Part shown: in pieces, positions 17,641 to 43,150 of the stretch
Layout: the number at the start of each line of letters is the position of its first letter
Numbering within the stretch: the first letter of the stretch is position 1
Origin: Thermothielavioides terrestris NRRL 8126
Lineage: Eukaryota; Ascomycota; Sordariomycetes; Sordariales; Chaetomiaceae
Direction of reading: 5' to 3'
Length of the DNA stretch: 64,000 nt
Assembly (NCBI RefSeq): GCF_000226115.1
Contig: NC_016458.1
Location: 5,242,001 to 5,306,000, forward strand
Program-made: the position numbers and the translations under genes
The notes under the pieces: model-generated
Databases searched by the model: none
Told to the model about the DNA's origin: nothing
The model's input: only the letters and a program-made list of their open reading frames with translations

Positions 17641-18420
17641 CTTTTCCTTTCTTTCTTTCCTATTTCCCTCTTTTCCTTTCGTTTGTTTATACTTTCCTTA
17701 TTAAAATATATTCGCTTTAATATATTTATTACCGCTATATCGCTATTAGATATATAAACGCTGTCCTTTATCTTATAGATCTCTTAGTTTTTCTTTTCTT
17801 TACCCTTTACTTAGATATTACTAATACTTTTAATTATAAAACTGTAGTCATTTAGTTCGTTAAGTACTTATCTTAGTTTTCCTATATATAAATTCGCTAC
17901 TGACCTTGATCTACAAATAGTTAAAGAAAGCTATCCTATTGCTATAAAGGTATAGAGGTTTAAGCCTCGAGGGTACAATGTTCTATTCTCTAGCTACTAC
18001 TAGATAGCAATACTATTTATTAGCTATAAGTACTACGCTATTGTTTTTATTTACTTCTAAAATAGCTTAACGTAGGCTATTACAATTTCCTTTCTCTTTA
18101 TATATCAACCTCAATATATCTATCTTCCCTAACAATTTCTTATCGTAGTCATTTACATTCACTATACGATCGATCGTTAGACCTTCTTATCACTAAGCTA
18201 TATATATTTATATAAGCTACCGTTAGTCGGTACACGTTTATACTATATTCGCAACTTAAAACAATCTACTATACGTTCTTATAGTACCTACGTCAACGAT
18301 AGAGGCGACTATATAGTCGATTCTCTTAGCTCGTTAACGTTATCGAGTAGCAAAGCGCTTAAGTATAATTATATCGATATTATAGAGGAAGACACTTAGC
18401 TAGCCTTTATCGCTTATAAG

Positions 18421-20294
18421 ATACCTCCCTATATAAGAAAGATGTCTACTAAAGGCTACGCTACCAACATCTAGAAGAGGGAGAACGCCCAACTTATAGC
18501 TAAATAAGCGGGAGGAGCAAAGGAAATTGATAGTACACCTAACGTTCCTTTATACGCCCTAGGAGCTTCTATATCCTACTAAGCTATTACTACAGACGTC
18601 GCTACTAGAACTACTTACAACAACGAAATAATAGCTACTAAAGAAGCTAATATAGCTAAGGTAATCTAAAACAATTTAGAGACTACCTATAAAGAGCAAT
18701 AGTAAAACGTTACTACAGACCCTATCGTAGTGTCCAACAACGAATAGGAAGTCTATAAGGACTACAACAAAGCGCTAGACAGCGATATTGTATAAGAGCA
18801 CTTAAGAACTCTTTTAACTTATAAGTATATAGAAGGGGAGTAGCCTCTATAACGTATACTAGGGATCAAGTATCTAGAAACTAGCAACGTTACCTCCGCT
18901 AGTATATAACGCTAGGAAGTCTAGCAAGCTCTATATATCGCATTAGAAGACGAGGCTACTACAACTAACGACGACCTAGATGTCTCCAACGACGATAGTA
19001 CCGATTATACTAATGATAAAGAGGATATAGCAACTAAGCTATACTATATCCTAGAGCTTTAGGAAACCTATATATTATATAGATACTCTTAGCGTCTAAC
19101 CAAAGCTATAAACAAATATATTGCTACTATAAGCAAAGCGTTTACTTATATATATATAGATTTTAGTTACAATAACAAGTATATAGCTAAACTAGCAACA
19201 TAATTCACTAGGTTCTACTATATAGTCCTAAAGAAGGATTTTAGTAACAAGCTTGTTAGCTTCGTATACAACCTATACGTTTAGAGGATCAAGGGTACAA
19301 TCAAAAGAGCCCTTAAAGAGTTCTAAGAGACGAATATAGTTATAGCAAGCTATATACTAACTACAATAGAAATCCTTATATTACGTTACGTCTCGCCTAA
19401 AGGCAAGGGCAACCCTTCTATAAACGCGATATTAATAAAGCTTGGACTAGCCTATTACAACAACGCTAAAGCTATAGATATAGCAAGTAGTACTAGCTAT
19501 ATAGTCACTATGAACGATAACGCTATCAAATCTCTATAAATAGATATAAAAGCTATATAAACGTTGACTAAGGATCTACTCTAATTCGCCTAAAAGTACC
19601 GAGTCTACGTTAAAAAAGTCGAAAAAACTATAGTAGAATTAGCAAAGCTTATTAGTATATTAGAAGCAAATAGCAAAGCCGGTAACCTAGATCCTAGTAG
19701 TCTTGCCTTCTAGAGCAACCTTAATAATATATACTATTACTGGATAGCAAAGATCAATAACCTATAGCTAGTATATAATAAGACTATAACGGATCTCTAT
19801 TATAAGAATAATGCCCTTCTAGAGAAAATCGACCTCGCTACTTAAACAATAGTGAACCTATATAATAGTATCTATATAGGACTAGCATAGTGTATATAGG
19901 ACGTTGAGCGTCGCTTTTTAGCTATCGAGTACTAAACTACTATAATAGATTTGTCTATTGCAAAGGTAGACGTTGCAAAGTAGGCCACTATAGCTATCTA
20001 AACTATTAGACGCTAAGAGTCAACGCCTAAGGTTAGCTATATTGTAACTATAACGACTATATACTCTACTAAGACTATATAGCTACCTACTTAGAAAACG
20101 TCTACTAAGATACCTATTGCTAAAGCTATATTACCGGTTATATCGACGACATTAGCTAAAACGCTATAAAGCTAGCGCAATGAAAACACCTATTCAACGT
20201 CGGGAGTTAAAATGGCTAAAGTCACTGCTACTAAGCGCTAACGTAAAGTAACTATTGACGACAAGGTGTAGAAGACGTCGATACGCCCTCCTAA
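18421..20294 (+). pseudogene. Third ORF of Gypsy copy 1, first part
   Basis: A degraded frame after the chromodomain, starting at an ATA that is ATG in copy 2. It reads PPYIRKMSTKGYATNI at the start and is rich in Lys, Thr, Ala and Ser, with no domain I recognise. Gypsy copy 2 interrupts it after IRPP. Joined to 38456-38567 it is 1986 bases long, exactly the length in copy 2. Confidence 0.72.
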
Positions 20295-20543
20295 TGTTAT
20301 ACGCCGATGGTCCTCGGCGACCATCTGACGGTAAACGTGTAAGGGTAAGAAAGATCAATGCCTCTCAGCCTCGTTAGCTGATGAGGCGGTACTCTTGAAC
20401 ACTAGTATATGTTACAAAAGTATATTGATGCAGTCTACCGTTCTACAAAGGGGTTACAAGCGAGGTTCCCTTTTTTAAGGGAACGCTTGTCACCCCTAAC
20501 CGCAGTGCGGTCATAGGTGCCCTTGCTATAGTTGTGTATAACA
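20295..20543 (-). repeat. 3' LTR of Gypsy copy 2
   Basis: 249 bases, TGTTATACGCC to GTGTATAACA on the plus strand. It pairs in the same orientation with 38202-38450 and in inverse orientation with the LTRs of copy 1. Confidence 0.93.
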
Positions 20544-20724
20544 AGTGCCTAGGGATAAGAAGAAAAAGATAGTGTCCTCGCTATTATTATAGAACTCAAT
20601 ATAGGATAAAGGAGCATATAGAAAGGAAGAAAACTAATCTACATTATACCCTATATAGGATTTCTATATCCGTTATTCTAGTCTATAGTAAGGTCCTCTA
20701 TTACGATTTGCCTATTCATTTGTT

Positions 20725-22710
20725 CTACTTGTCTAGGTCGATAGTGCTATCGCTAGCGTATAGGTCGTCCTTAGCTACCTTCGACGTCTTCGTGGCTACT
20801 CTACGTTCAGCGGATACGAGTGTCTTCTTGACTTTCTTAGGAGGACGTATTAGCGTCTTCTATACTTTATCGTCGATTGTTACTTTTCTTTGGCGCTTAC
20901 TACCCGTAACCTCAATAGTTTTAGCTCCCAACGTCGATTAAATATCGTCGTTACACTGACTCTATAGCGTCTTAGCTGGCGTTGCTAGTACGACCGATAG
21001 CGCGGCTTTGGCTATAGGTGTCTTGCTTAGCGTCTTCTATATAGGCAACTATATAGCTTTAACGATATATACTATAGTCGTAGTTGTAGTATAAGCGATC
21101 TTAGGTACCGGTTCATAGTAGCTAGTGGTCTAAATAGGTGTTCTAGCTTGTTTTATAACGGCTACCTTTACAGCGAGTAAGTCTATTGTAGTGGCTTAGG
21201 TCTCGATAGCCGCTAAGCGGCGTTTAACGTCCTATATACGCTATACTAGTCCTATATAAATGCCGTCGTATAAGTTCACTGTTGTTCGAGTAGCGAGGTC
21301 GATCTTCTCTAGAAGAGCGTTATTCTTATAACGGAGATCTATTACAGTCTTATTGTACGTTAGCTATAGGTCGCTAATCTTTACTATCTAGTGATAGTAC
21401 ATATTATTAAGGTTGCCCTAGAAGGCAAGACTACTAGGATCTAGGTTACCGGCTTTGCTATTTATTTCCAACGTACTAATGAACTTTGCTAATTCTACTA
21501 TAGTTTTTTCGATCTCCTTGACATAGACTTAGTACTTCTAGGCGAATTAGAGCAGATCCTTAGTTAGCGCTTATACCGCTTTTATATCCGTTTACAGAGA
21601 TTTGATAGCGTTATCGTTTACGGTGACTGTATAGCTAGCACCGTTCGCTATGTCTATAGCTTAGACGTTGTTATAATGGGCTAGTCCAAGCTCTATTAAT
21701 ATTACGTTTATAGAAGGGTTGCCCTTGCCCTTAGGCGAGACGTAACGTAATATAAGGATTTCTATTGCGGTTAGTATATAGCTTGCTATAACTATACCCG
21801 TCTTTTAGAACTCTTTAAGAGCTCTTTTGATTGTACCTTTGATCCTCCGAATATATAGGTTGTATACAAAGCTAGTAGGCTTGTTACTAAAATCCTTCTT
21901 CGAGACTATATAGTGGAACTTAGCGAATTACATCGCTAACTTAGCTATATATTCGTCATCGTGACTAAAATCTATATACATATAAGCAAGTGCTTCGCTT
22001 ATAGTAGTGATATACTTGTTTGTAGCTCTAGTTAGGCGCCGAGAGTACCTACGTGATATATAGGTTTCCTGAAGCTCTGGGATATAGTACGGCTTAGTCG
22101 CTATATCCTCCTCATCATTAGTGTAATTAGCACTATCGTCGTCGAAGACGTCTAGGTCGTCGTTAGTTGTAGCGGCCTCGTCTTTTAACGCAATATATAG
22201 AGCTTACTAGACTTCCTAGCGCTATACGCTAGCGGAGGAGACGTTGCTAGTTTCTAGATACTTGATCCCTAGTATACGTTATAGGGGCTACTCCCCTTCT
22301 ATGTATTTATAAGTTAAGAGAGTTTCTAAACGCTTTTATATAGCATCGCTATCTAGCGCTTCGTCGTAGTCCTTATAGACTTCCTGTTCGTTGTCGGATA
22401 CTACGATAGGGTCTATGGTAACATTCTACTATCGCTCCTTACGAGCGGTCTCTAAGCTGTTTTAGATTGCTTTAGCTATATCAGCTTCTTTAGTAGCTAT
22501 CATTTCGTTGTTATAAGTAGTTCTAGTAACAACGTCTTTGGTGATAGCCTAGTAGGACGTAGAAGCTCCTAGGGCGCGTAAAGGAACGCTAGGCGTATTG
22601 TCGATTTTCTTTACTCCTCCTATTTATTTAGCTATAAGTCGGGTACTCTCCCTTTTCTAGGTATCGATAGCGTGGCCTTTAGCAGGTATCTTTCTTATAT
22701 AGGGAGGCAT
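20725..22710 (-). pseudogene. Third ORF of Gypsy copy 2
   Basis: Starts with an intact ATG (MPPYIRKIPAKGHAIDT) and ends VDLDK-TAG, 1986 bases or 661 codons, with internal RIP stops. It lies downstream of the chromodomain in the position where envelope-like or other accessory ORFs occur in some LTR elements. I see no signal peptide or membrane segment. The C-terminus is Lys/Thr-rich, suggesting a nucleic-acid or nuclear role. Function unknown. Confidence 0.72.
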
Positions 22711-23499
22711 CTTGTAAGCGACGAAGGCTAGTTGGGTATCTCCCTCTGTAATATCGATATAATTGTATTTAAACGCTTCGCTATTCGATAATATTAGCGA
22801 GCTAAAAGAATCGACTATATAGTCACCTCTGTCGTTGACATAGATATTATAAGAATATATAGCGGATTGTCTCGATTTACAAATATAGCGTAAGCGTATA
22901 CCGACTGACGGTAGTTTGTATAAATGTATATAGCTTAGTAATAAGAAGATCTGACGATCGATCGTATAGTAAATACAAATGACTATAATAAGAAATTGTT
23001 AGGGAAGATAGATATATTGAGGTTGATATATAAAGAGAAAGGAAATTGTAGTGGCCTACGTTGGGCTGTTCTAGAAGTAAATAAAAACAATAGCGCAGTG
23101 CTTACAGCCAATAAACAGTGTTGCTATCTAGTAGCGGCTAGAGAATAGAACATTATACCTTCGAGGCTCGAAGCCCTATGCCTTTATAGCAATAGGATAG
23201 CTTTCCTTGACTATTTGTAGGTCAAGGTCAATAGCAAATCTGTATATAGGAAAACTAGGATAAGCAAAGTACTTGACGAACTAAATAACTACGGTTTTAT
23301 AACTAAAAGCGTTGGTGATATCTAAGTAAAGGGTAAGGAGAGGAAAAACTAGGAGATCTATAAGATAGAGGACAGCGCTTATACGTCTAGTAGTAGTATA
23401 GTAGTAATAGATATACTAAAGCGAACGTATTCTAATAAAGAAAGTGTAAGCGAATAAAAAGAAGAGAGGGAAACGGGAAAGAAGGAAAGAGAAAGAGAA

Positions 23500-26400: not shown

Positions 26401-26835
26401 AAACCTCTAGGACTAATGACCACTATACAGTTATAGTATTCTTCTACGACTAGAAGCTGGAAGAAGAATCTAGAGGCGTCGAATGCTATAAAGATCGTAT
26501 TGCTTATTATTATGTTTATAATATCGTCTTAGTCGGGCAACGGGTATATATCTGGTACTACCAATGTATTTAGGGGCTAGAGGTCTACTATAGCTCTGCC
26601 TTTCGTTTTTCCAGCAATTGTATAGTAGACTACGAAGACTGGGCAAACGACAGGGGTTAGCTAGTCTATAAAGTCTATCTTTCTTTACGTATATAGTTTG
26701 TTATATTCTTTGTCGACGATCGCTTAGTCTTTGGCGTTTAATAGGTAAACCTAAATAGGCTTAAGCTAATTCTACTATCCGTCGATAAACGGAATTCTTA
26801 TCTTCTAATCCTTTAGTATAGGGACAATGCTATAG
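23500..26835 (-). pseudogene. RT-RH-IN-chromodomain part of pol, Gypsy copy 2
   Basis: Continues pol on the far side of the Copia element. Reverse transcriptase runs from about 26810 to 26030 and keeps an open stretch (LDILDKVYIHISIEKSF); the catalytic YIDD reads YIDN. RNase H follows to about 25400, integrase to about 23890, and the chromodomain near 23850-23690 (EYLV, KGFTAKDD). Stops are mostly TAG, as expected when TGG or CAG codons lose G or C. Confidence 0.87.
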
Positions 26836-27017
26836 TGAGAAGAGCAGCGAAGTGGGGCCATGCAGGATGCAGAGGCATGTGTATTGAGAGAGGTGCTCCT
26901 CTCAAGCTGGGTGGGAGGAGCGCCGAGGTCTATATACATGTGTGGGCAGAGCTGACATGTGCCCCCTGAGCGCAGGGAGCCTGGCAGATAGAGTCACGTG
27001 TGCACTAGCACGCGACA
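26836..27017 (-). repeat. 3' LTR of the Copia element
   Basis: 182 bases, TGAGAAGAGC to GCACGCGACA on the plus strand, with canonical TG/CA ends. I found no difference from 34213-34394. On the minus strand a GTATATAGACC block about 100 bases into the LTR could be the TATA element of U3. Confidence 0.95.
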
Positions 27018-27030
27018 CACCCCCCAGACA
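27018..27030 (-). other. Polypurine tract of the Copia element
   Basis: Next to the 3' LTR the minus strand reads TCTGGGGGGTG, a short purine run of the kind that primes plus-strand synthesis. Confidence 0.7.
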
Positions 27031-27098
27031 GACTCTCAGGAGGCTGTCTGTGGAACACGCATGCTGGGCACTGACTCTGGAGCTCGCACTGCCAGGCG

Positions 27099-27500
27099 CA
27101 TTGAACTGTGGCCTCCGGTATTGATCCCACCATTGCGCGCAGCCGCCGCCATTGTGCAAGTTGTCCGCGCGCCATTGTGTACGCGTTGTGGCGCGTGCGT
27201 TGGCGAATTGCGTGCTGCGCTGAATGCGGTCAGACCCAGGGGCGCCAAAGTTGACATTCAGGGGCGCTGTCGTTGGCATTGTTGCGAGCGCCATTGATCG
27301 CATTGTGCGCAGTTCCCAATTGCGCAGCGCGTTCCATCCCCATCCTCCATTCAGGCGCGTATCTTGAATCGTGCCGCCTCGATTGTGGGTGCAGGTTGCG
27401 CAATTGAGCATTGCGATCATTCGCATGTGTGCCATTGTGGCCTTTGTTGCCCAACGTCTTGAATGCACGCCCACCATTGCTACCCATTGTTGCATTCGCG
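27099..27500 (+). promoter_or_regulatory. CATTG-rich region upstream of the antisense gene
   Basis: About eleven copies of CATTG, mostly as CCATTG or GCATTG, within 400 bases, all on the plus strand, between the 3' LTR and the antisense gene. About 0.4 would be expected by chance. TATTTAA at 27556-27562 lies about 100 bases before the ATG at 27665, followed by a CAA/AGC-rich leader typical of fungal 5' UTRs; a possible 5' UTR intron (GTGAGT to CTGCAG) spans about 27567-27611. Promoter function is inference. Confidence 0.5.
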
Positions 27501-27664
27501 CCATGCAGACAATACCGCAGTGCCGCAGGCCGGTCGATGGCTGCACTCCTGGAAGTATTTAATCATGGTGAGTGCGCCTCAAACCATCTCCCGAACTCTT
27601 CCTCTGCAGACCGCGAGCAACAGCAGCAGCATCAGCAACAACAACAACATCAACAACAACAACC

Positions 27665-28578
27665 ATGCCGTCCTCTGCTCGCCTCGCCGCTCTCGAGAAG
27701 GCCCGCGCCGCCAAGGCGGCCAAGAACAAGCCTCCCCCGCTCCCGGCCACCCCCACCAAGGCTGGCGCTGGCGCCAGCAAGAAGTGAGCACACCACAATC
27801 TGCCCGACTGGCGCGGCGCGTACATCCGCGTCTCTGACACTTGCAGCAGGACCCCCGCCACGCCGAAGACCCCCTCCAAGCGTGCGGCGCCCCCCTCCTC
27901 CTCCTCCTCCTCTTCGGAGGATGAGGAGGAGGAGGGCGCCCTGAGAGAGCAGCCCTGCCTGGGTTGCCTGAAGTCCGCCATGCGCGGCAAGAGCTCTGGG
28001 GAGTGCCGGGAGGCCCCCGGCAAAGCGGCCCGGTGCGCGCGCTGTGCGCGCGGCAAGAAGTGTCGCTCCATGTAAGTCTGTCAGCACAGTTGCAAGGCGC
28101 ACGGTACTGATGAATCAGCCCCGCGAGTGTGCTCCCCGCCGCCAAGCACTTCCTGGCCCTGATGCAGGGGCGCCAGGAGCCCAAGGCCAATCTCGTGAGT
28201 ACAAATGAAAAGACAAAGGAAAAGAGCTAGTCTGACTGTGTGTGGTAGGACCAGAAGACGCTGCGCGCCACCCTGCGCGCCCTCCTCGCCATGGAGGGCG
28301 AGGACGCCGACGCCGAGGATGACGACGACGATGACGACGAGCGCGCGCCCGCGCCCGCCAAGGGCAAGGGCAAGGGCAAGGCAAAGGCGGCCGCGCCCAC
28401 CAAGAAGTCCAAGAAGGCCAAGAAGGCCAAGAAGGAGGAGAGCGAGGAGGAGGACGAGGATGAGGACGAGAGCGAGGAGGAGGCTGCTCCGGGCTTTGAC
28501 CCGGAGGCGCTGGCGCGTGGTGTGGCGGCGGCGGTGCTGGCCGCCATGACTCCCAAGAAGAAGAAGGGTGGCAAGTAG
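27665..28578 (+). CDS. Cys-cluster protein encoded antisense inside the Copia element
   Basis: Four exons on the plus strand: 27665-27783, 27847-28071, 28119-28194 and 28249-28578, coding 249 residues with all junctions in frame. The first acceptor is a NAGNAG tandem (TTGCAGCAG); both choices keep the frame. The N-terminus is Ala/Lys-rich (MPSSARLAALEKARAAKAAK), followed by an acidic Ser/Glu run. A cysteine cluster comes next, C-x2-C-x12-C-x9-C-x2-C-x5-C, from CLGCLKS to GKKC. Then come a helical segment (FLALMQGRQEPKAN), a poly-Asp stretch, a Lys/Ala tract (KKSKKAKKAKK) and a second acidic block. The six cysteines resemble a Zn2Cys6 binuclear cluster with altered spacing. Alternating acidic and Lys-rich blocks suggest a nuclear, chromatin-associated protein. 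Because its introns are antisense to the retroelement RNA they would survive retrotransposition. I know no name for it. Confidence 0.8.
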
Positions 28579-28665
28579 TTCCGCGTTGTTGTTTGTTGTT
28601 TCGCGGGTGCGGGCACCCCCCAGTCTGTTTTGCGCCGGCGTGCGCTCCTGTGTTTAGTTTGTTTT

Positions 28666-31600
28666 TTACTCAAGCCTTGCGTTCCTGTCCCCCTGATCGT
28701 CTCCCTGCACCATATGACGCACATCCTGCAGGTTGAGGAGCTCCCTGAAGTGCTCGAACTTCTGGCGAGTCAACACCTTCGTAAGCCCATCTGCAGGCAT
28801 CTCAGCAGTTGGCAAGTACGCGACCTCGAAAGATCCCTTCGCGTGTTCCTGACGCAGCCACATGTTGTGGATGTCAACATGACGCAGGCGAGTGCTGATG
28901 CGTTCGTTCTCTCCCACCACGAGCCGGATGGTCTGCGTGTTGTCACAGAACACAGTCCAAGGCACACCCAGCTCAAGTTGCAGGTCGCTGAGGAAACGCT
29001 TGAACGCCATTGTCTCCCGCGCTGCGGTGGACAGAGCGAGGAGCTCCGCCTCCGTAGACGAGGTGGTGACTGTATCTTGGCGCGCAGCCTTCCAATGAAC
29101 GAGCCCACCGAACAGAGAGATGAGATAGCCTTGTGACGACCTGCGCGTATCAGGATCATCCGCATGCGACGCGTCCCCTGCGATGAGCAAGATTTGCGTG
29201 GGAGCAGCATCCTGCGGCACACCCCCGAACTGAATAGCGAGGAAGCGCGTGCCAAACAGGTAGGAGATTGCATGCTTTGCAGCATCAATGTGTGTCCCCG
29301 AGGGGTTCGTCAGGAAGTGCGAGAGCAACGATGCCGGGAACGCGACCTCCGCGCGCAGTACGACCGCGGCGTAGAGTAGCGATCCAACAAGCTCCTGGAA
29401 CAGCCTGATCTGCGCTCGAGTGGCAGTGCCAGTGAACTTGCGGAGTTCCATTACAGGGAGAGGGATGCTTGGAAAGGTGATTTGATCCGCGAGACCGAAG
29501 CGCTTCGCAATCTTCTCGATGTACTGGTCAAGGCAGAGCCAGATCTTGCGTTGCGCGCGGTCGCGGATCACCCTGATGCCCAGGAACCAAGCCACGTCCC
29601 CCTTTTCGTGCACTTCGTACTTCGCTTTCAGAGCGTCGATGATCCTCTGAGCTGTCTCCGCGTGGTCTCTGTGGTAGAAGACTAGGTAGTCGTCCACGTA
29701 GAACAGCACGAGCACGCGCCGTTGGCGATCGAAGAACAAGCATGGCTCCTCAGGCGAAGCTGTGAGGCCGAGCTTCCGAAGTGTGCCGGAGAACTCTCGG
29801 TACCAGAGCAACGGAGACTCTCGCAAGCCGTACAGAGCTCTCTGCAGTTCCACAAGAAATCCAGGCTCTTCGAACCCCTCAGGCATCTCGCAAACAACAC
29901 CCTCAGGCAGGTCCGCATTCAAGAACGCCTGCGCTACGTCGAACTGCTTGACCTCAAGATCAAACTGCGCGGCGATAGCCATCATTGTGCGGAACGAGCG
30001 CGCTGCGAGTGTGGCTGCATAAGTGCTTTGCAGAGTAGTGAGCTCCTGAAGGTCGCCTCGAACGCAGATGCGAGACTTGCACTTCTCGAGGTTGCCATTC
30101 TGATCGAACTTGTAGACGAAAACCCACTTCAGAGGGAGTGGTCTTCCTTTGAAGGTCTCGCGCCGAATCTTGCGCCATGTCTTCCTGTTGACGAGATTGC
30201 GAATCTCTTCCTCAGCCGCTTTGATGAACTCGGGCCCTTGAGGGTGGTTGGCGAGATCCCTCCAGCGCTTAGGAAGCTTGGCGAGGTCGTCAAAATGCAC
30301 CCGGGGCCTGCTTGGCGTTGCCCCAGGACGCGCGTCACGATGTTGGCGGACTGCCGCCGCGAAAACCGCATGCAATGTGCGGTGCTGGATGCTGTCGCCC
30401 TCCTGCAGAGCGATTACAGGGTCATCCAAAAATGTGTGGCTGAACGAATGCCACGCGTGCTGATCTGGTACGTCGATGCTCTCCTCATGGTACATGGGGG
30501 CTGCGAAGCACACCAGACCGCCGCTTCCGCCTGCACCGCCGCCGGGAGACTGTCTACGGATCCGTCTTGAGTAACGAGTTGGTGGTCCGTATACCTTGCG
30601 CACGTACTTGCGCTTCTCCCTCGCTGGCGTGGCTGCGGGTGTTCCAGAATCAGGCTGAGAACCATGGTTTGAGGCGTCTTCCCAGTCGTCTGGAGCCTCT
30701 GGCTGATCGCCAGGGCGGTCGACCTCCTCTTCACTGCTAGGAGTATCGACTGCGGCAGCACTTGCCGTCGTGCTGCCCTGGCTGGCACTCCTAGTTGTGC
30801 CGCCAGCGACGCTGCTACTGGCGTCTCCGATAACTGCATCAGGGGCCTCCGATGATGCAGTTCCCACCGGTCTGCTGTCACTGCTAGCACCGTGATCAGC
30901 AGGGGGGCCGCTCCCTCCAAAACCGTCCGGGCGTTCCTGGCGCGGCTCCGGTGTTGGTTCTGGAGTGTAAAGACCACCAGTGGGCTCCTCACCCGAACTC
31001 TGGCCGCGATGCTCGAGTACTTCCGCACCCCCCAGACAGGATGGAGAGTGGGGAGGAGCCTGCCCTTCCGGTTCCCGTTCAGTCACACCCCCCAGATGTC
31101 CTGGAGAGCCGGGAACCGTCACTGGGTCTTCATGGGCATCTGTAACTCCGAACGGCACTGCCTCGGCGTCCCGAGGCTCTATGGGGAGTTCGATGAGCTC
31201 AACAACCTTTCTGGCGACTGCCACCGATTGAGCATCAAGCTGCTCCTCTCCCTCCCGGTAGAACGTGCGTTCGTCAAAGGTCACGTTGCGCGTTGTGATG
31301 ACCTTCCTGAGTTTCGGTACCCAGATGCGGTAAATGTTGGACGCCCTGTATCCAACAAGATACCCGATGTGCGCTCTGGGCTTGACCTTCCCAGCACGCC
31401 TCTCAATCCCCTTTTCGCGTTCCTTCGTCAGCGGGTACGCTCGGCAGCCGTACGCATAAACGCCGCCCCAGTTAGGGCGCAGGTCGGCAGTCAGGGAATG
31501 CACGAGACCGGGCTGATACCAGCGAAACCAGTGTCTGAACCAAGAGTCGAGCACCTCGTTCGGTGAGCGGTAGTTGCGAGCGCGACTTGGGCTTATGCCG

Positions 31601-34035
31601 TGCAAGTACGCAGCTGCAACCGTCGACTCTGGCCACAGGTTCTGAGGAAGTCCGGCGCCCGTGAGCATTGCAAGGCTCTTTGTGATAAGTTCTTTGCCTG
31701 CGCGTTCTGAACCGCCGTTGGGCTCCTTGGTATCCGAAGGCGTAACCTCCAAGTCGATGCCCTGCTCCTGCGCCCAGAGCTCGTACGCTGTGTATCCCTT
31801 GATGCCAATGACACTGGTGTCGCCATCCTGCCTGATCTTGCAGATGGGCAGCCCGAATTGGCGTTTCACCCAGCGTTCGAAGCGGACGAGCTCATCGTAC
31901 ACACTGTCGTGCGTCTTGCGTATGAGTGGAGTCGCGAAAAGCTTCCCACTGTACTCGTCCTTGATGACCAGCAGCCAGTTCGAGCCGTCAAGTGCCCTCG
32001 GAAAGTCGAACAGGTCCCAAGAGACCCTCCAAAATGGGCGTGGTGACGGCTTCGATGGTGGGCGGCGCGAAATAACCTGTTCCGCGTATGCCTGCGCGCA
32101 TACCTCGCATTCCAGTCTGCGAGGCCCGCGAATCCGCACACCTCTGGCGTTCAAGACGAGATGTTCCAGCGCCTCTGAACTCAGATGACCAGATCTGATG
32201 TGCCAGAGAGCAGCTGGGTCTTCTCTCTCTGGGAGCGGGTCCTTGGAGGGCCTGCTCCTCCCAAAGTTCTTCACAACTGCAGCGCTCAAAGTCACAAGTC
32301 CGGCAAAGCTTCTGGGGAGCACCCGAAGGGCATCAGAGTAGGAGGAAAGAGCATTGTATTGCAAGAAGGTCAGGTTGAACTTCTCGACCAGCTGCCTGAG
32401 TACAATACTCTTCTCCAAAGTTCCCCAACGCAGCGTGCAATCCAGACCGCAGTACCAAGCGCCCTGCGCTCGAAGGCGTCTCTCAGAGACAATGTTGACG
32501 TGAAAGCCCTCGACGACAGCAACGTTGTCTATGACAAGGTCCTCAGTGTTCGGGCCGCGCGCGCCGTTCAAAACGTTCTTGATGATCCATTTGCCGCGGC
32601 CAGAGATTGGGAAGGATGTGGTGCCTGCCTCAACAGTCTCACCGCTCGTCTTGACGAACGTGCCAGGGACAAGGAGAGCCCTGTCATTGACGAGATTGAC
32701 CGCTCCACAGTTGTCAAACAGAATGCACTTGCTGAGCGGGTGTGGGCCAAACTCGAGAGATGCGAACACGCCACGCGCTCCTTCGAGCTCGCTTGCGATC
32801 GCTGGGTCGATGACAGCGTGCACCTGGAGCGCTCCCGGAAATGAAGGACCCGCGCCACTATTGGAACTAGTGGTCTTGGCGTTTGACGATGCGTTCTGGA
32901 TCTTCCAACCGAGCTTCTGGAGCTCCACTCGAAGGTCGTTCCAGCGCTCCTTGGCGAATCGTTGGCGCACTGCATTCACCGCGTCGTTTGGGAGCGTCAC
33001 GCCGTTCAGGGATTCCCCTGTCAGAGCGTACCGAAGTTGCCGACATTCCGAGGGAAACCACCAGTGGCGAAAAGTCTTCGGCTTGCACGGGCAGTCGCGG
33101 TTCTTCTTGCGCTTCTGACTGCCCTTCTGACCGTTCTGCGCTCCTGGAAGCACGGGGTAGGCTCCAGGCTTCGGGTGGACCACCGCTTCAGCCTGGAGGA
33201 TCGCCTCGAGTGAGAGAGCCAAGTCGAGAAGGGTTGGTCCTTTGCCGCCGAGCTTCTCAGTCACACTGATATCCTTCAGCATGCGAGTCGCCCACTCTGG
33301 ATCCAAGCGTCTCTGCACAGTCTTGAGGAATGTGGTGACGGCTGTTGCGTCGGTGACTGCGGCGATGTTGGCCGCCCTTGCGCGGTGGAGGACCGACATG
33401 TACTCGAGAATCCAGGTCCTGGGTTCGACGCCGCTCTGGCTGCCTCTGGCAAGGACAGTTGCGTACTCCTCGGCAAGCGCAGTGAAAGTAGCGCTGTTGG
33501 AGGGTGCGATAATCTTGCGCAGCGTCTGTATAAACCCGCGTGTGCCGGTGACGTTCTCGGCCTCCATGATGTCGTGTGCGGTGTGTGCGTAGCGGTCGCT
33601 GACAGACACGTTGATCATCTCGCGGAGCTTGTTGACGGCACGGAACGCCGCAGTGTCGATGGCGGACTTCGAGAACGCCTCGCACAGCTTGAGGAATTCA
33701 CGGCGGATCTCCTCCTCAGTAGGATTGGTTGACTGAGGTTCCTCGCCACGGGTGGTGGGATCGGCTGCCTTCCAGGCTTGCAGTGCAGTGTGCCACGCCT
33801 GAAGATGGCGGTCCTGGACCGCCTGACGTGCCGCACCCTGGGTGGGCTGCACAGGAAGGCCGAGCATCTCAGCCTCGGTGGCGAGCTCGGTGTCTGGGTC
33901 GATGATGTGCCAGACACGCAGGTTGTTGGCCTCTTGGCGAACAGCAGAGATCCATCTTGGCCAGTCCTTGGGGCTGTCGAGGGTTGGAAGCGCTGCAACA
34001 GCAACGGTGACGGTTTTCTCAGTTTCGAGTGTCAT
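28666..34035 (-). CDS. Copia gag-pol polyprotein, intact
   Basis: One uninterrupted ORF of 1789 codons. The N-terminal ~330 residues are gag-like, with only a degenerate Cys/His segment (CPCKPKTFRHWW...C). The protease core is ILFDNCGAVNLVND near residue 440, where copia enzymes normally show DSGAT. Pre-integrase HHCC: HIRSGHL and CEVC. Integrase Asp/Asp/Glu: SWDLFDF near 673, RQDGDTS, and GGSERAGKE. Reverse transcriptase of the RVT_2 type: KWVFVYKFD, QFDVAQAFLNADLPE and FYVDDYLVF near 1445. RNase H: GDASHADD near 1618, STEAELLAL, and HVDIHNMWLR. The order protease-integrase-RT is diagnostic of Copia (Pseudoviridae-type). The variant protease site could mean an inactive or divergent protease; all other catalytic residues are present. 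It converges on the antisense gene, the two stops being 87 bases apart. Confidence 0.95.
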   Translation of the reverse strand: MTLETEKTVTVAVAALPTLDSPKDWPRWISAVRQEANNLRVWHIIDPDTELATEAEMLGLPVQPTQGAARQAVQDRHLQAWHTALQAWKAADPTTRGEEPQSTNPTEEEIRREFLKLCEAFSKSAIDTAAFRAVNKLREMINVSVSDRYAHTAHDIMEAENVTGTRGFIQTLRKIIAPSNSATFTALAEEYATVLARGSQSGVEPRTWILEYMSVLHRARAANIAAVTDATAVTTFLKTVQRRLDPEWATRMLKDISVTEKLGGKGPTLLDLALSLEAILQAEAVVHPKPGAYPVLPGAQNGQKGSQKRKKNRDCPCKPKTFRHWWFPSECRQLRYALTGESLNGVTLPNDAVNAVRQRFAKERWNDLRVELQKLGWKIQNASSNAKTTSSNSGAGPSFPGALQVHAVIDPAIASELEGARGVFASLEFGPHPLSKCILFDNCGAVNLVNDRALLVPGTFVKTSGETVEAGTTSFPISGRGKWIIKNVLNGARGPNTEDLVIDNVAVVEGFHVNIVSERRLRAQGAWYCGLDCTLRWGTLEKSIVLRQLVEKFNLTFLQYNALSSYSDALRVLPRSFAGLVTLSAAVVKNFGRSRPSKDPLPEREDPAALWHIRSGHLSSEALEHLVLNARGVRIRGPRRLECEVCAQAYAEQVISRRPPSKPSPRPFWRVSWDLFDFPRALDGSNWLLVIKDEYSGKLFATPLIRKTHDSVYDELVRFERWVKRQFGLPICKIRQDGDTSVIGIKGYTAYELWAQEQGIDLEVTPSDTKEPNGGSERAGKELITKSLAMLTGAGLPQNLWPESTVAAAYLHGISPSRARNYRSPNEVLDSWFRHWFRWYQPGLVHSLTADLRPNWGGVYAYGCRAYPLTKEREKGIERRAGKVKPRAHIGYLVGYRASNIYRIWVPKLRKVITTRNVTFDERTFYREGEEQLDAQSVAVARKVVELIELPIEPRDAEAVPFGVTDAHEDPVTVPGSPGHLGGVTEREPEGQAPPHSPSCLGGAEVLEHRGQSSGEEPTGGLYTPEPTPEPRQERPDGFGGSGPPADHGASSDSRPVGTASSEAPDAVIGDASSSVAGGTTRSASQGSTTASAAAVDTPSSEEEVDRPGDQPEAPDDWEDASNHGSQPDSGTPAATPAREKRKYVRKVYGPPTRYSRRIRRQSPGGGAGGSGGLVCFAAPMYHEESIDVPDQHAWHSFSHTFLDDPVIALQEGDSIQHRTLHAVFAAAVRQHRDARPGATPSRPRVHFDDLAKLPKRWRDLANHPQGPEFIKAAEEEIRNLVNRKTWRKIRRETFKGRPLPLKWVFVYKFDQNGNLEKCKSRICVRGDLQELTTLQSTYAATLAARSFRTMMAIAAQFDLEVKQFDVAQAFLNADLPEGVVCEMPEGFEEPGFLVELQRALYGLRESPLLWYREFSGTLRKLGLTASPEEPCLFFDRQRRVLVLFYVDDYLVFYHRDHAETAQRIIDALKAKYEVHEKGDVAWFLGIRVIRDRAQRKIWLCLDQYIEKIAKRFGLADQITFPSIPLPVMELRKFTGTATRAQIRLFQELVGSLLYAAVVLRAEVAFPASLLSHFLTNPSGTHIDAAKHAISYLFGTRFLAIQFGGVPQDAAPTQILLIAGDASHADDPDTRRSSQGYLISLFGGLVHWKAARQDTVTTSSTEAELLALSTAARETMAFKRFLSDLQLELGVPWTVFCDNTQTIRLVVGENERISTRLRHVDIHNMWLRQEHAKGSFEVAYLPTAEMPADGLTKVLTRQKFEHFRELLNLQDVRHMVQGDDQGDRNARLE

Positions 34036-34200
34036 CTTGAAGCAAACTGAGGTGTGCTGCGTTGTTCAGACTGAACGATGGGGGTGATGTGAACTTGTGG
34101 GAGTTGTTGACGATCGAGAAAACTGGAAGTGGTTGTTGGAGAAAAGAAGAAGGATGGCCCCAACTGGGCTACACCGCTGTTATGAGTGTTGTGCGCGAAC

Positions 34201-34212
34201 CGGGCTCATAAC
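34201..34212 (-). promoter_or_regulatory. Primer binding site of the Copia element
   Basis: Immediately inside the 5' LTR the minus strand reads GTTATGAGCCCG, complementary to the anticodon arm of initiator tRNA-Met (GGGCTCATAAC). This is half-tRNA priming, as known for copia of Drosophila and related elements. Confidence 0.75.
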
Positions 34213-34394
34213 TGAGAAGAGCAGCGAAGTGGGGCCATGCAGGATGCAGAGGCATGTGTATTGAGAGAGGTGCTCCTCTCAAGCTGGGTGGGAGGAGCGC
34301 CGAGGTCTATATACATGTGTGGGCAGAGCTGACATGTGCCCCCTGAGCGCAGGGAGCCTGGCAGATAGAGTCACGTGTGCACTAGCACGCGACA
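34213..34394 (-). repeat. 5' LTR of the Copia element
   Basis: Direct copy of 26836-27017, followed on the plus strand by the TATAG duplication and then by Gypsy copy 2 sequence. Confidence 0.95.
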
Positions 34395-34399
34395 TATAG

Positions 34400-42905: not shown

Positions 42906-42987
42906 AACCTTCGGCGGCTCCCTAGCGTACAGTATAATAGCGATTAGCCGCCTTTAGCGATCATTGACGTATCGAACTATAGTGGGC

Positions 42988-43150
42988 ACCACGTTCAATA
43001 GCTACGTTCGATGGCTACGTTCGATAGCTACGTTTGATGGCTACGTTCGATAGCTACGTTCGATGGCTGCGTTCGATAGCTACGTTCGATAGCTGTGTTC
43101 GAGGGTGTGTTCGAGGGCGCATTTAGGGGCGTATTCAGGGGCGTATTCAG
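42988..43150. repeat. 13-base tandem repeats next to the right terminal repeat
   Basis: About eight copies of TACGTTCGATAGC, alternating with TACGTTCGATGGC, run from about 42988 to 43095. They grade into GTGTTCGAGG units and then three copies of a 12-base CGTATTCAGGGG unit just inside the right terminal inverted repeat. The left end has no counterpart. Subterminal repeats of this kind often bind transposase; that role is inference. Confidence 0.82.

Follow-up and report, generated by a model that had tools for sequence, protein, structure and literature searches.

A Copia retrotransposon with a probable gene on its opposite strand

The window analysed here, the whole 64,000-nucleotide stretch of the Thermothielavioides terrestris genome, contains a Copia LTR retrotransposon of 7,559 bp at 26836-34394 on the minus strand. 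Its LTRs (182 bp each, beginning with TG and ending with CA) are 100% identical, and the TSD TATAG is found on both sides. The gag-pol frame (1,789 aa, 28666-34035, minus strand; stop codon at 28666-28668) is uninterrupted. A Pfam search of gag-pol returned RVT_2 (PF07727, E 4e-32, residues 1296-1520) and SH3_retrovirus (residues 854-926); gag_pre-integrs at residues 604-649 stayed under its cut-off (19.3 vs 28.4 bits), and the integrase core and RNase H models gave no match to gag-pol at E 1. The PBS is 13 nt long and complementary to the region around the anticodon of tRNA-Met, as encoded by three genes in this genome. Such half-tRNA priming has a precedent in Drosophila copia. The identical LTRs, the TSD, the open gag-pol, and the existence of near-identical sister copies bear out an earlier sequence-only reading of this DNA, which had called the element live-looking. 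The same reading had placed a four-exon gene on the plus strand, between the pol stop and the 3' LTR. The features of the locus are as follows:

26831-26835, no strand: TSD TATAG, left copy
26836-27017, minus strand: 3' LTR, 182 bp (the element reads on the minus strand)
27018-27029, minus strand: putative polypurine tract GTCTGGGGGGTG on the element sense strand, adjoining the 3' LTR
27018-27664, plus strand: spacer and presumed promoter and leader of the antisense gene; CATTG occurs 11 times
27665-27783, plus strand: antisense gene, predicted exon 1, ATG at 27665
27784-27846, plus strand: predicted intron 1, 63 nt, GT-AG
27847-28071, plus strand: predicted exon 2, with the six-Cys cluster, residues 77-112 (codon 112 is the sixth Cys)
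28072-28118, plus strand: predicted intron 2, 47 nt, GT-AG
28119-28194, plus strand: predicted exon 3
28195-28248, plus strand: predicted intron 3, 54 nt, GT-AG; all 7/7 copies of subfamily B (see below) have an indel here, of +4 or +1
28249-28578, plus strand: predicted exon 4, with acidic and Lys-rich tracts, stop TAG
28666-34035, minus strand: gag-pol, 1,789 aa, Copia-type RVT_2
34200-34212, minus strand: PBS, 13 nt, tRNA-Met anticodon region
34213-34394, minus strand: 5' LTR, identical to the 3' LTR
34395-34399, no strand: TSD TATAG, right copy

The predicted gene and its product

The gene model was recovered as first described: four exons encoding 249 aa, and three GT-AG introns (63, 47, and 54 nt) that keep the frame. 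The motifs CTGAC, TACTGAT, and CTGAC lie near the ends of introns 1, 2, and 3, respectively, and we take them to be branch-point-like. The six-Cys cluster of the product (Cys 77, 80, 93, 103, 106, and 112; spacing 2-12-9-2-5) and its acidic and Lys/Ala-rich character (50 Ala, 34 Lys, and 41 Asp+Glu among 249 residues) are likewise as reported. By itself, this exon model proves little because the stretch is GC-rich and poor in stops: when donors are defined loosely, 1,068 different splice chains begin at this ATG, end at this stop, and stay open throughout. The gene is also overlapped by minus-strand ORFs of 170, 203, 150, 165, and 89 aa.

No Pfam family matched the 249-aa protein or pieces of it above cut-off. 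The best hit, Pox_Ag35 (E 0.0059), scored 16.9 bits vs a cut-off of 28.3 and reflects low complexity; an 87-aa piece had no match among PDB sequences up to E 10. Homology thus lends no support to a function, because neither the Pfam nor the PDB sequence search gave a convincing relative. The binuclear cluster of fungal Zn2Cys6 proteins has the spacing C-x2-C-x6-C-x5to12-C-x2-C-x6to8-C. We rejected this identity given the Cys spacing of the product and the lack of any Zn_clus match in Pfam at E 10.

Copies of the element in the genome

We searched the genome (36,912,256 bases in 6 contigs) and scored 40 of the 66 first-look candidates, so that the copy counts are lower bounds. There are at least 19 young copies of the gene region, with a rounded identity of 100% over 1,041 bases, plus one fragment and at least 20 older copies. 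Taken whole, the 18 young copies other than that of the window are all full-length and differ from it by 0 to 3 substitutions, with a 22-bp insertion in four and a 1-bp insertion in one. A TSD was found in 17 of these 18 (18/19 with the window) and an identical LTR pair in 16 (17/19 with the window). Every one of the 19 full-length young copies bears the antisense gene, introns included. Its CDS is identical in 13 of them, window included, and one base off (G28297T) in the other 6. The earlier claim that antisense introns survive transposition, and that the gene moves intact, therefore holds for 19/19 near-identical copies. The young copies stem from a very recent burst, in which every move took the gene along, introns included.

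The expectation that other Copia copies would carry the same gene was borne out within this genome, by 19/19 young copies and 20 older carriers. Exon 4 was found at 39 loci, 35 of which have an opposite-strand RVT_2 within 3 kb. Three of the remaining four have one at 8.5-9.6 kb, likely the result of nested insertions, and the last has none nearby. Related copies without the gene had been named as evidence against it. They did not appear among the gene loci, given the pairing at 35/39; the point stands less firmly on the side of pol, where 61 of the 96 RVT_2 matches have no antisense gene alongside and are unsorted as to family membership. Within the genome, the antisense gene goes with one Copia family.

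The young copies show some structure of their own. The substitution G28297T, common to 6/19, falls in exon 4 (codon 157, Gly to Cys by codon) and marks a second young lineage. Four of the 19 (L011, L013, L015, L017) share a 22-bp tandem duplication at 29560-29581 that shortens the pol frame to 1,509 aa. These four have four different TSDs and an unchanged antisense gene; with its pol defective, this subfamily seems to have proliferated, presumably in trans. One copy, L016, lacks a TSD; the 246 bp flanking it on the right are the same as those to the right of L014, a copy on another contig, whereas the two left flanks are unrelated. This reflects either recombination between copies or an assembly join. 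Finally, L027 is internally deleted: one LTR and the start of the antisense gene, to about 27828, are followed directly by the end of the other LTR.

Older copies and the mark of RIP

Nine older copies (L028-L036, hereafter group A) carry 224-266 C-to-T or G-to-A changes each and only 1 to 7 changes of other kinds. The mutated dinucleotides are CpA (949/1,233) and CpG (993/1,755), against 8% for CpC and 10% for CpT. This excess and its bias towards CpA and CpG are the mark of RIP. Seven other RIPped copies, subfamily B (L038-L042, L044, and L046), also have 36-50 transversions and 11-17 reverse transitions each. These non-RIP changes predate RIP, or at any rate were not made by it; they record divergence between two lineages that were once active. 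Two copies (L037 and L043) are intermediate and two (L045 and L047) partial. The intron columns are complete in 18/20 older copies. Carriage of the gene gives no immunity to RIP, because 20 older gene-bearing copies are RIP-mutated, and the idea that it acts as a shield against RIP is not supported. The same process offers a usable method: RIP scrambles old copies, yet the RIP-proof changes record selection before the death of the element.

Selection on the antisense reading frame

We counted, per column, the changes other than C-to-T and G-to-A that were shared by at least 3 of the 7 subfamily-B copies, and judged synonymy against the codon of the window. The expectation was obtained by reassigning the same changes at random to CDS positions that bear the same base. 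Copies outside subfamily B (L028-L037, L043, L045, and L047) are given apart. In the CDS, 18 of 40 shared non-RIP changes are synonymous vs 8.2 expected (sd 2.4), an excess that was reached in 0/5,000 permutations (P 0.0007 in a second run of 3,000). The normalised N/S is 0.31-0.32, in line with the dN/dS below 1 that the sequence-only reading had put forward as support. Third codon positions received 24 of the 40 changes (binomial P 0.0005), distributed over exons 1 to 4 as 2/6, 8/13, 5/9, and 9/12. The result was unchanged when each of the 7 copies was left out in turn (7/7), and N/S stayed at 0.30-0.32 for sharing thresholds of 2 to 6. Transversions alone gave a ratio of 0.37 (13/33 synonymous vs 6.5, P 0.006). 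In the two remaining plus-strand frames of the spliced CDS the ratio was 1.26 and 2.37, and in the six unspliced frames 0.73-1.50. As a positive control, a 1.6-kb piece of pol in 4 copies (L052 and L053, with 2/6 pol pieces each, were excluded) had 34/42 synonymous changes vs 8.8, a ratio of 0.06, which shows that the method detects selection where it must exist.

The intron-exon anatomy left its own trace in subfamily B. The introns evolved more quickly, with changed sites at 16/164 vs 40/738 in the CDS (Fisher P 0.048). The exonic indels measure 3, 6, 9, or 18 nt, where the 9-nt indel of three copies, aligned as adjacent 1+8 at 28338, was taken as one; those of intron 3 measure 4 or 1 nt and those of the LTR-side spacer 1, 3, 8, 11, 22, and 50 nt. 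No shared non-RIP change fell on the GT or AG of any of the three introns in the 7 copies of subfamily B and the 9 of group A. When all 1,068 splice chains were ranked by selection score, the proposed model came 49th (z 4.03; best 4.24, median 2.43). The comparison thus supports the predicted frame and the general splice pattern, rather than each splice site.

The copies given apart are less uniform. The partial copy L045 shows the same excess (8/17 synonymous vs 3.0 expected, P 0.0036). Group A has 4/10 vs 2.1 expected (P 0.12), and L047, which aligns poorly, has a ratio of 0.79 (P 0.14). The pair L037/L043 is contrary, with 1/11 CDS changes synonymous vs 2.1 expected (ratio 2.34). Overall divergence per site is the same in the CDS (0.054) and in the noncoding spacer (0.061, P 0.63), so that the constraint is visible in codon structure and not in overall rate. 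One antisense register of the spliced CDS also retains part of the signal (0.42, P 0.006), and the minus-strand ORFs of 170 and 165 aa have weak ratios (0.55, P 0.12, and 0.44, P 0.085, respectively). Such a residue is to be expected because third positions coincide on the two strands, although a small sense-strand contribution to the signal may be present.

We rejected the idea that the Cys cluster is the most constrained part of the protein: it has 0.116 nonsynonymous changes per codon vs 0.031-0.167 elsewhere. The six Cys codons are free of shared nonsynonymous changes, which is uninformative because it would be expected anyway with 22 nonsynonymous changes in 249 codons.

In summary, the pattern of changes indicates that the antisense gene was under purifying selection as a protein during the history of the family, more weakly than pol.

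Origin of the gene and alternative explanations

The suggestion that the gene was captured from the host found no backing in its own genome. At E 0.1, all matches to the protein come from this element family but one (28% identity, E 0.045), which is not a convincing paralogue. A pol scan of viral_contigs found no relatives. The gene could still be passive cargo, a transduced host gene that serves the host or no one, comparable to isolated captures by retroelements. Its intact introns, its own strand, and a composition unlike that of gag-pol would suit such an origin, all the more as capture in antisense would keep the introns. The single 28% match in the genome argues against it, as does the presence of the gene both in the young family and in the diverged older subfamily, with selection in between, to which cargo would not have been subject. 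We consider this explanation rather improbable, and a source in another species is possible.

One may also suppose that the antisense transcript itself matters, through dsRNA, small RNAs, or self-limitation of copy number, and that the protein is secondary. Antisense RNAs have been proposed to act so in plant LTR elements (PMC7264820). A role for the RNA only predicts no synonymous excess, whereas selection here acted on codons, which makes this reading very improbable.

Could the frame be a product of chance, a GC-rich spacer that is merely open, has plausible introns, and codes for nothing? The 1,068 open splice chains, the low complexity of the protein, the three minus-strand frames open across the same stretch, and the equal divergence of CDS and spacer would all allow it. 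Yet the synonymous and third-position excess is found, among plus-strand frames, in the predicted one only, and the exonic indels are all in triplets, whereas those of intron 3 are not and those of the spacer mostly are not. The codon structure of the RIP-proof changes thus strongly disfavours a chance frame, to which we give very little credence. Least credible is coding on the sense strand, either as an extension of gag-pol or as a small ORF downstream of pol, with the plus-strand signal as its shadow: the overlapping minus-strand ORFs and the antisense register at 0.42 would suit it, but the contiguous ORFs are all non-significant (0.55, P 0.12; 1.17; 1.54; 0.44, P 0.085; 0.86), and the signal needs plus-strand splicing to keep one register over four exons and is stronger on that strand.

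The comparison of copies thus leads us to regard the antisense gene as very probably an accessory gene of the Copia element. We are highly confident that it is a real, element-borne coding gene. That it is, in addition, spliced from an antisense transcript and of service to the element is a joint claim that we consider probable.

Relation to known antisense genes of retroelements

Antisense accessory genes of LTR retrotransposons are already known; new here are the Copia host, the three predicted introns, and the six-Cys protein. The closest parallel is the aORF-3R of plant LTR retrotransposons, of which accounts in PMC7264820 and, for Retand, PMC11963269 list gene23 of maize Grande, rice RIRE2, ORF4 of Silene Retand, and bean PvRetro13. 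According to PMC7264820, an aORF-3R is located between pol and the 3' LTR and runs against gag-pol, is found in most copies of a family, and is conserved like the proteins of the element; Grande gene23 has its own promoter upstream and a nuclear protein. The plant proteins encoded at this place are described as nuclear or as having DNA-binding domains (PMC7264820; PMC11963269). The T. terrestris gene also lies between pol and the 3' LTR on the opposite strand, is present in 19/19 young copies, with RVT_2 within 3 kb at 35/39 gene loci, and is conserved at the protein level (normalised N/S 0.31, against 0.06 for pol). It differs in that the TRP28 (PF04195) and SMC domains of the plant proteins were unmatched in a Pfam search. 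Grande and RIRE2 are plant Ty3/Gypsy elements, whereas the T. terrestris element is a fungal Ty1/Copia. Retand is also a plant Ty3/Gypsy element (PMC11963269), and the word intron is absent from the text of that report, whereas three introns are predicted here.

Among fungi, Boty-like elements of Botrytis cinerea and Sclerotinia carry an extra antisense gene, brtn, between pol and the 3' LTR (Zhao et al. 2011, as presented in PMC7264820, PMC8365987, and PMC4227169). Filamentous ascomycete hosts and an added antisense gene at this place are common to both cases. According to the same accounts, Boty gag-pol has a chromodomain and is grouped as Gypsy, whereas the T. terrestris element has RVT_2 of the Copia type and no chromodomain match. 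The Ty1/Copia elements (Pseudoviridae) of Pezizomycotina have been arranged in 27 FunCo clades (PMC5445492), and that description agrees with our element in LTRs, a gag-pol with RVT_2, and a 5-bp TSD. It differs in that the words 'antisense', 'opposite', 'extra ORF', and 'accessory' are absent from the main text of PMC5445492, which reports no antisense gene. A literature search, mainly of open texts and in part, found no report of such a gene in a fungal Copia element.

HBZ, in turn, is a spliced antisense gene of HTLV. Genes of the HTLV type, which are named in PMC11963269, resemble the present one as retroelement genes on the antisense strand near the 3' LTR; they belong to a retrovirus and not to a Copia element, and no sequence relation is expected.

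Proposed role of the antisense gene

We propose that transcription of the antisense gene would start at a promoter in the spacer next to the 3' LTR and run against gag-pol, and that the transcript would be spliced, as the intron anatomy and evolution suggest. In the genomic RNA of the element the introns are antisense and stay unspliced, hence they are kept through transposition and the gene is copied whole in each round, as the 19 near-identical copies with introns show. If splicing is confirmed, this would show an intron-bearing gene passing through an RNA stage with its introns kept. Selection has maintained the protein, whose Ala/Lys/acidic composition and six Cys fit a nucleic-acid-binding or chromatin protein. 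Together with the plant counterparts, which are nuclear or have DNA-binding domains, this suggests a nuclear role, possibly as a regulator of the transcription or integration of the element. Such an accessory role, binding nucleic acids or chromatin in the nucleus, is a tentative proposal drawn from composition and analogy, about which we are somewhat more doubtful than convinced. A more specific version, which we regard as unlikely, is that a chromatin-reading protein, made early from the spliced antisense message, steers the cDNA to AT-rich heterochromatin made by RIP, where insertions are harmless. If true, this would be a Copia element with its own intron-bearing targeting or de-silencing factor, encoded on the strand where the introns are hidden from transposition. 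For years, antisense accessory genes have been catalogued in LTR retrotransposons with no function assigned to them (PMC7264820). This compact Copia of a fungus, with 19 or more near-identical copies in 36.9 Mb of genome, offers a setting in which function can be tested.

Spacer motifs and insertion sites

The 647-base spacer upstream of the antisense gene contains CATTG 11 times, at 27099-27489, in one orientation and with no CAATG; 500 shuffles gave a mean of 2.6 and a maximum of 9. A conserved binding array was rejected as an explanation, since subfamily B has changes at 2/55 sites inside the motifs vs 31/487 outside, a small difference that carries no significance figure. Both flanks are below 47% GC, a cut chosen after the flanks were seen, for 18/19 young insertions vs 6/40 evenly spaced genome points (Fisher P 3e-9); the lone exception is L025, with flanks of 52-58% GC. 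Loss of insertions in genes by selection explains part or all of this AT-rich bias. The CATTG array and the bias could each link the protein to the life cycle of the element, but neither shows that the protein is responsible.

In the window, the element (around 60% GC) is enclosed by a block of about 30-45% GC. The part of this AT-rich block to the left of the element contains a large inverted repeat (18000-23131), with arms of 2,295 nt that are 82% complementary, and its right edge has a 13-bp tandem repeat, ACGTTCGATRGCT, at 42978-43120.
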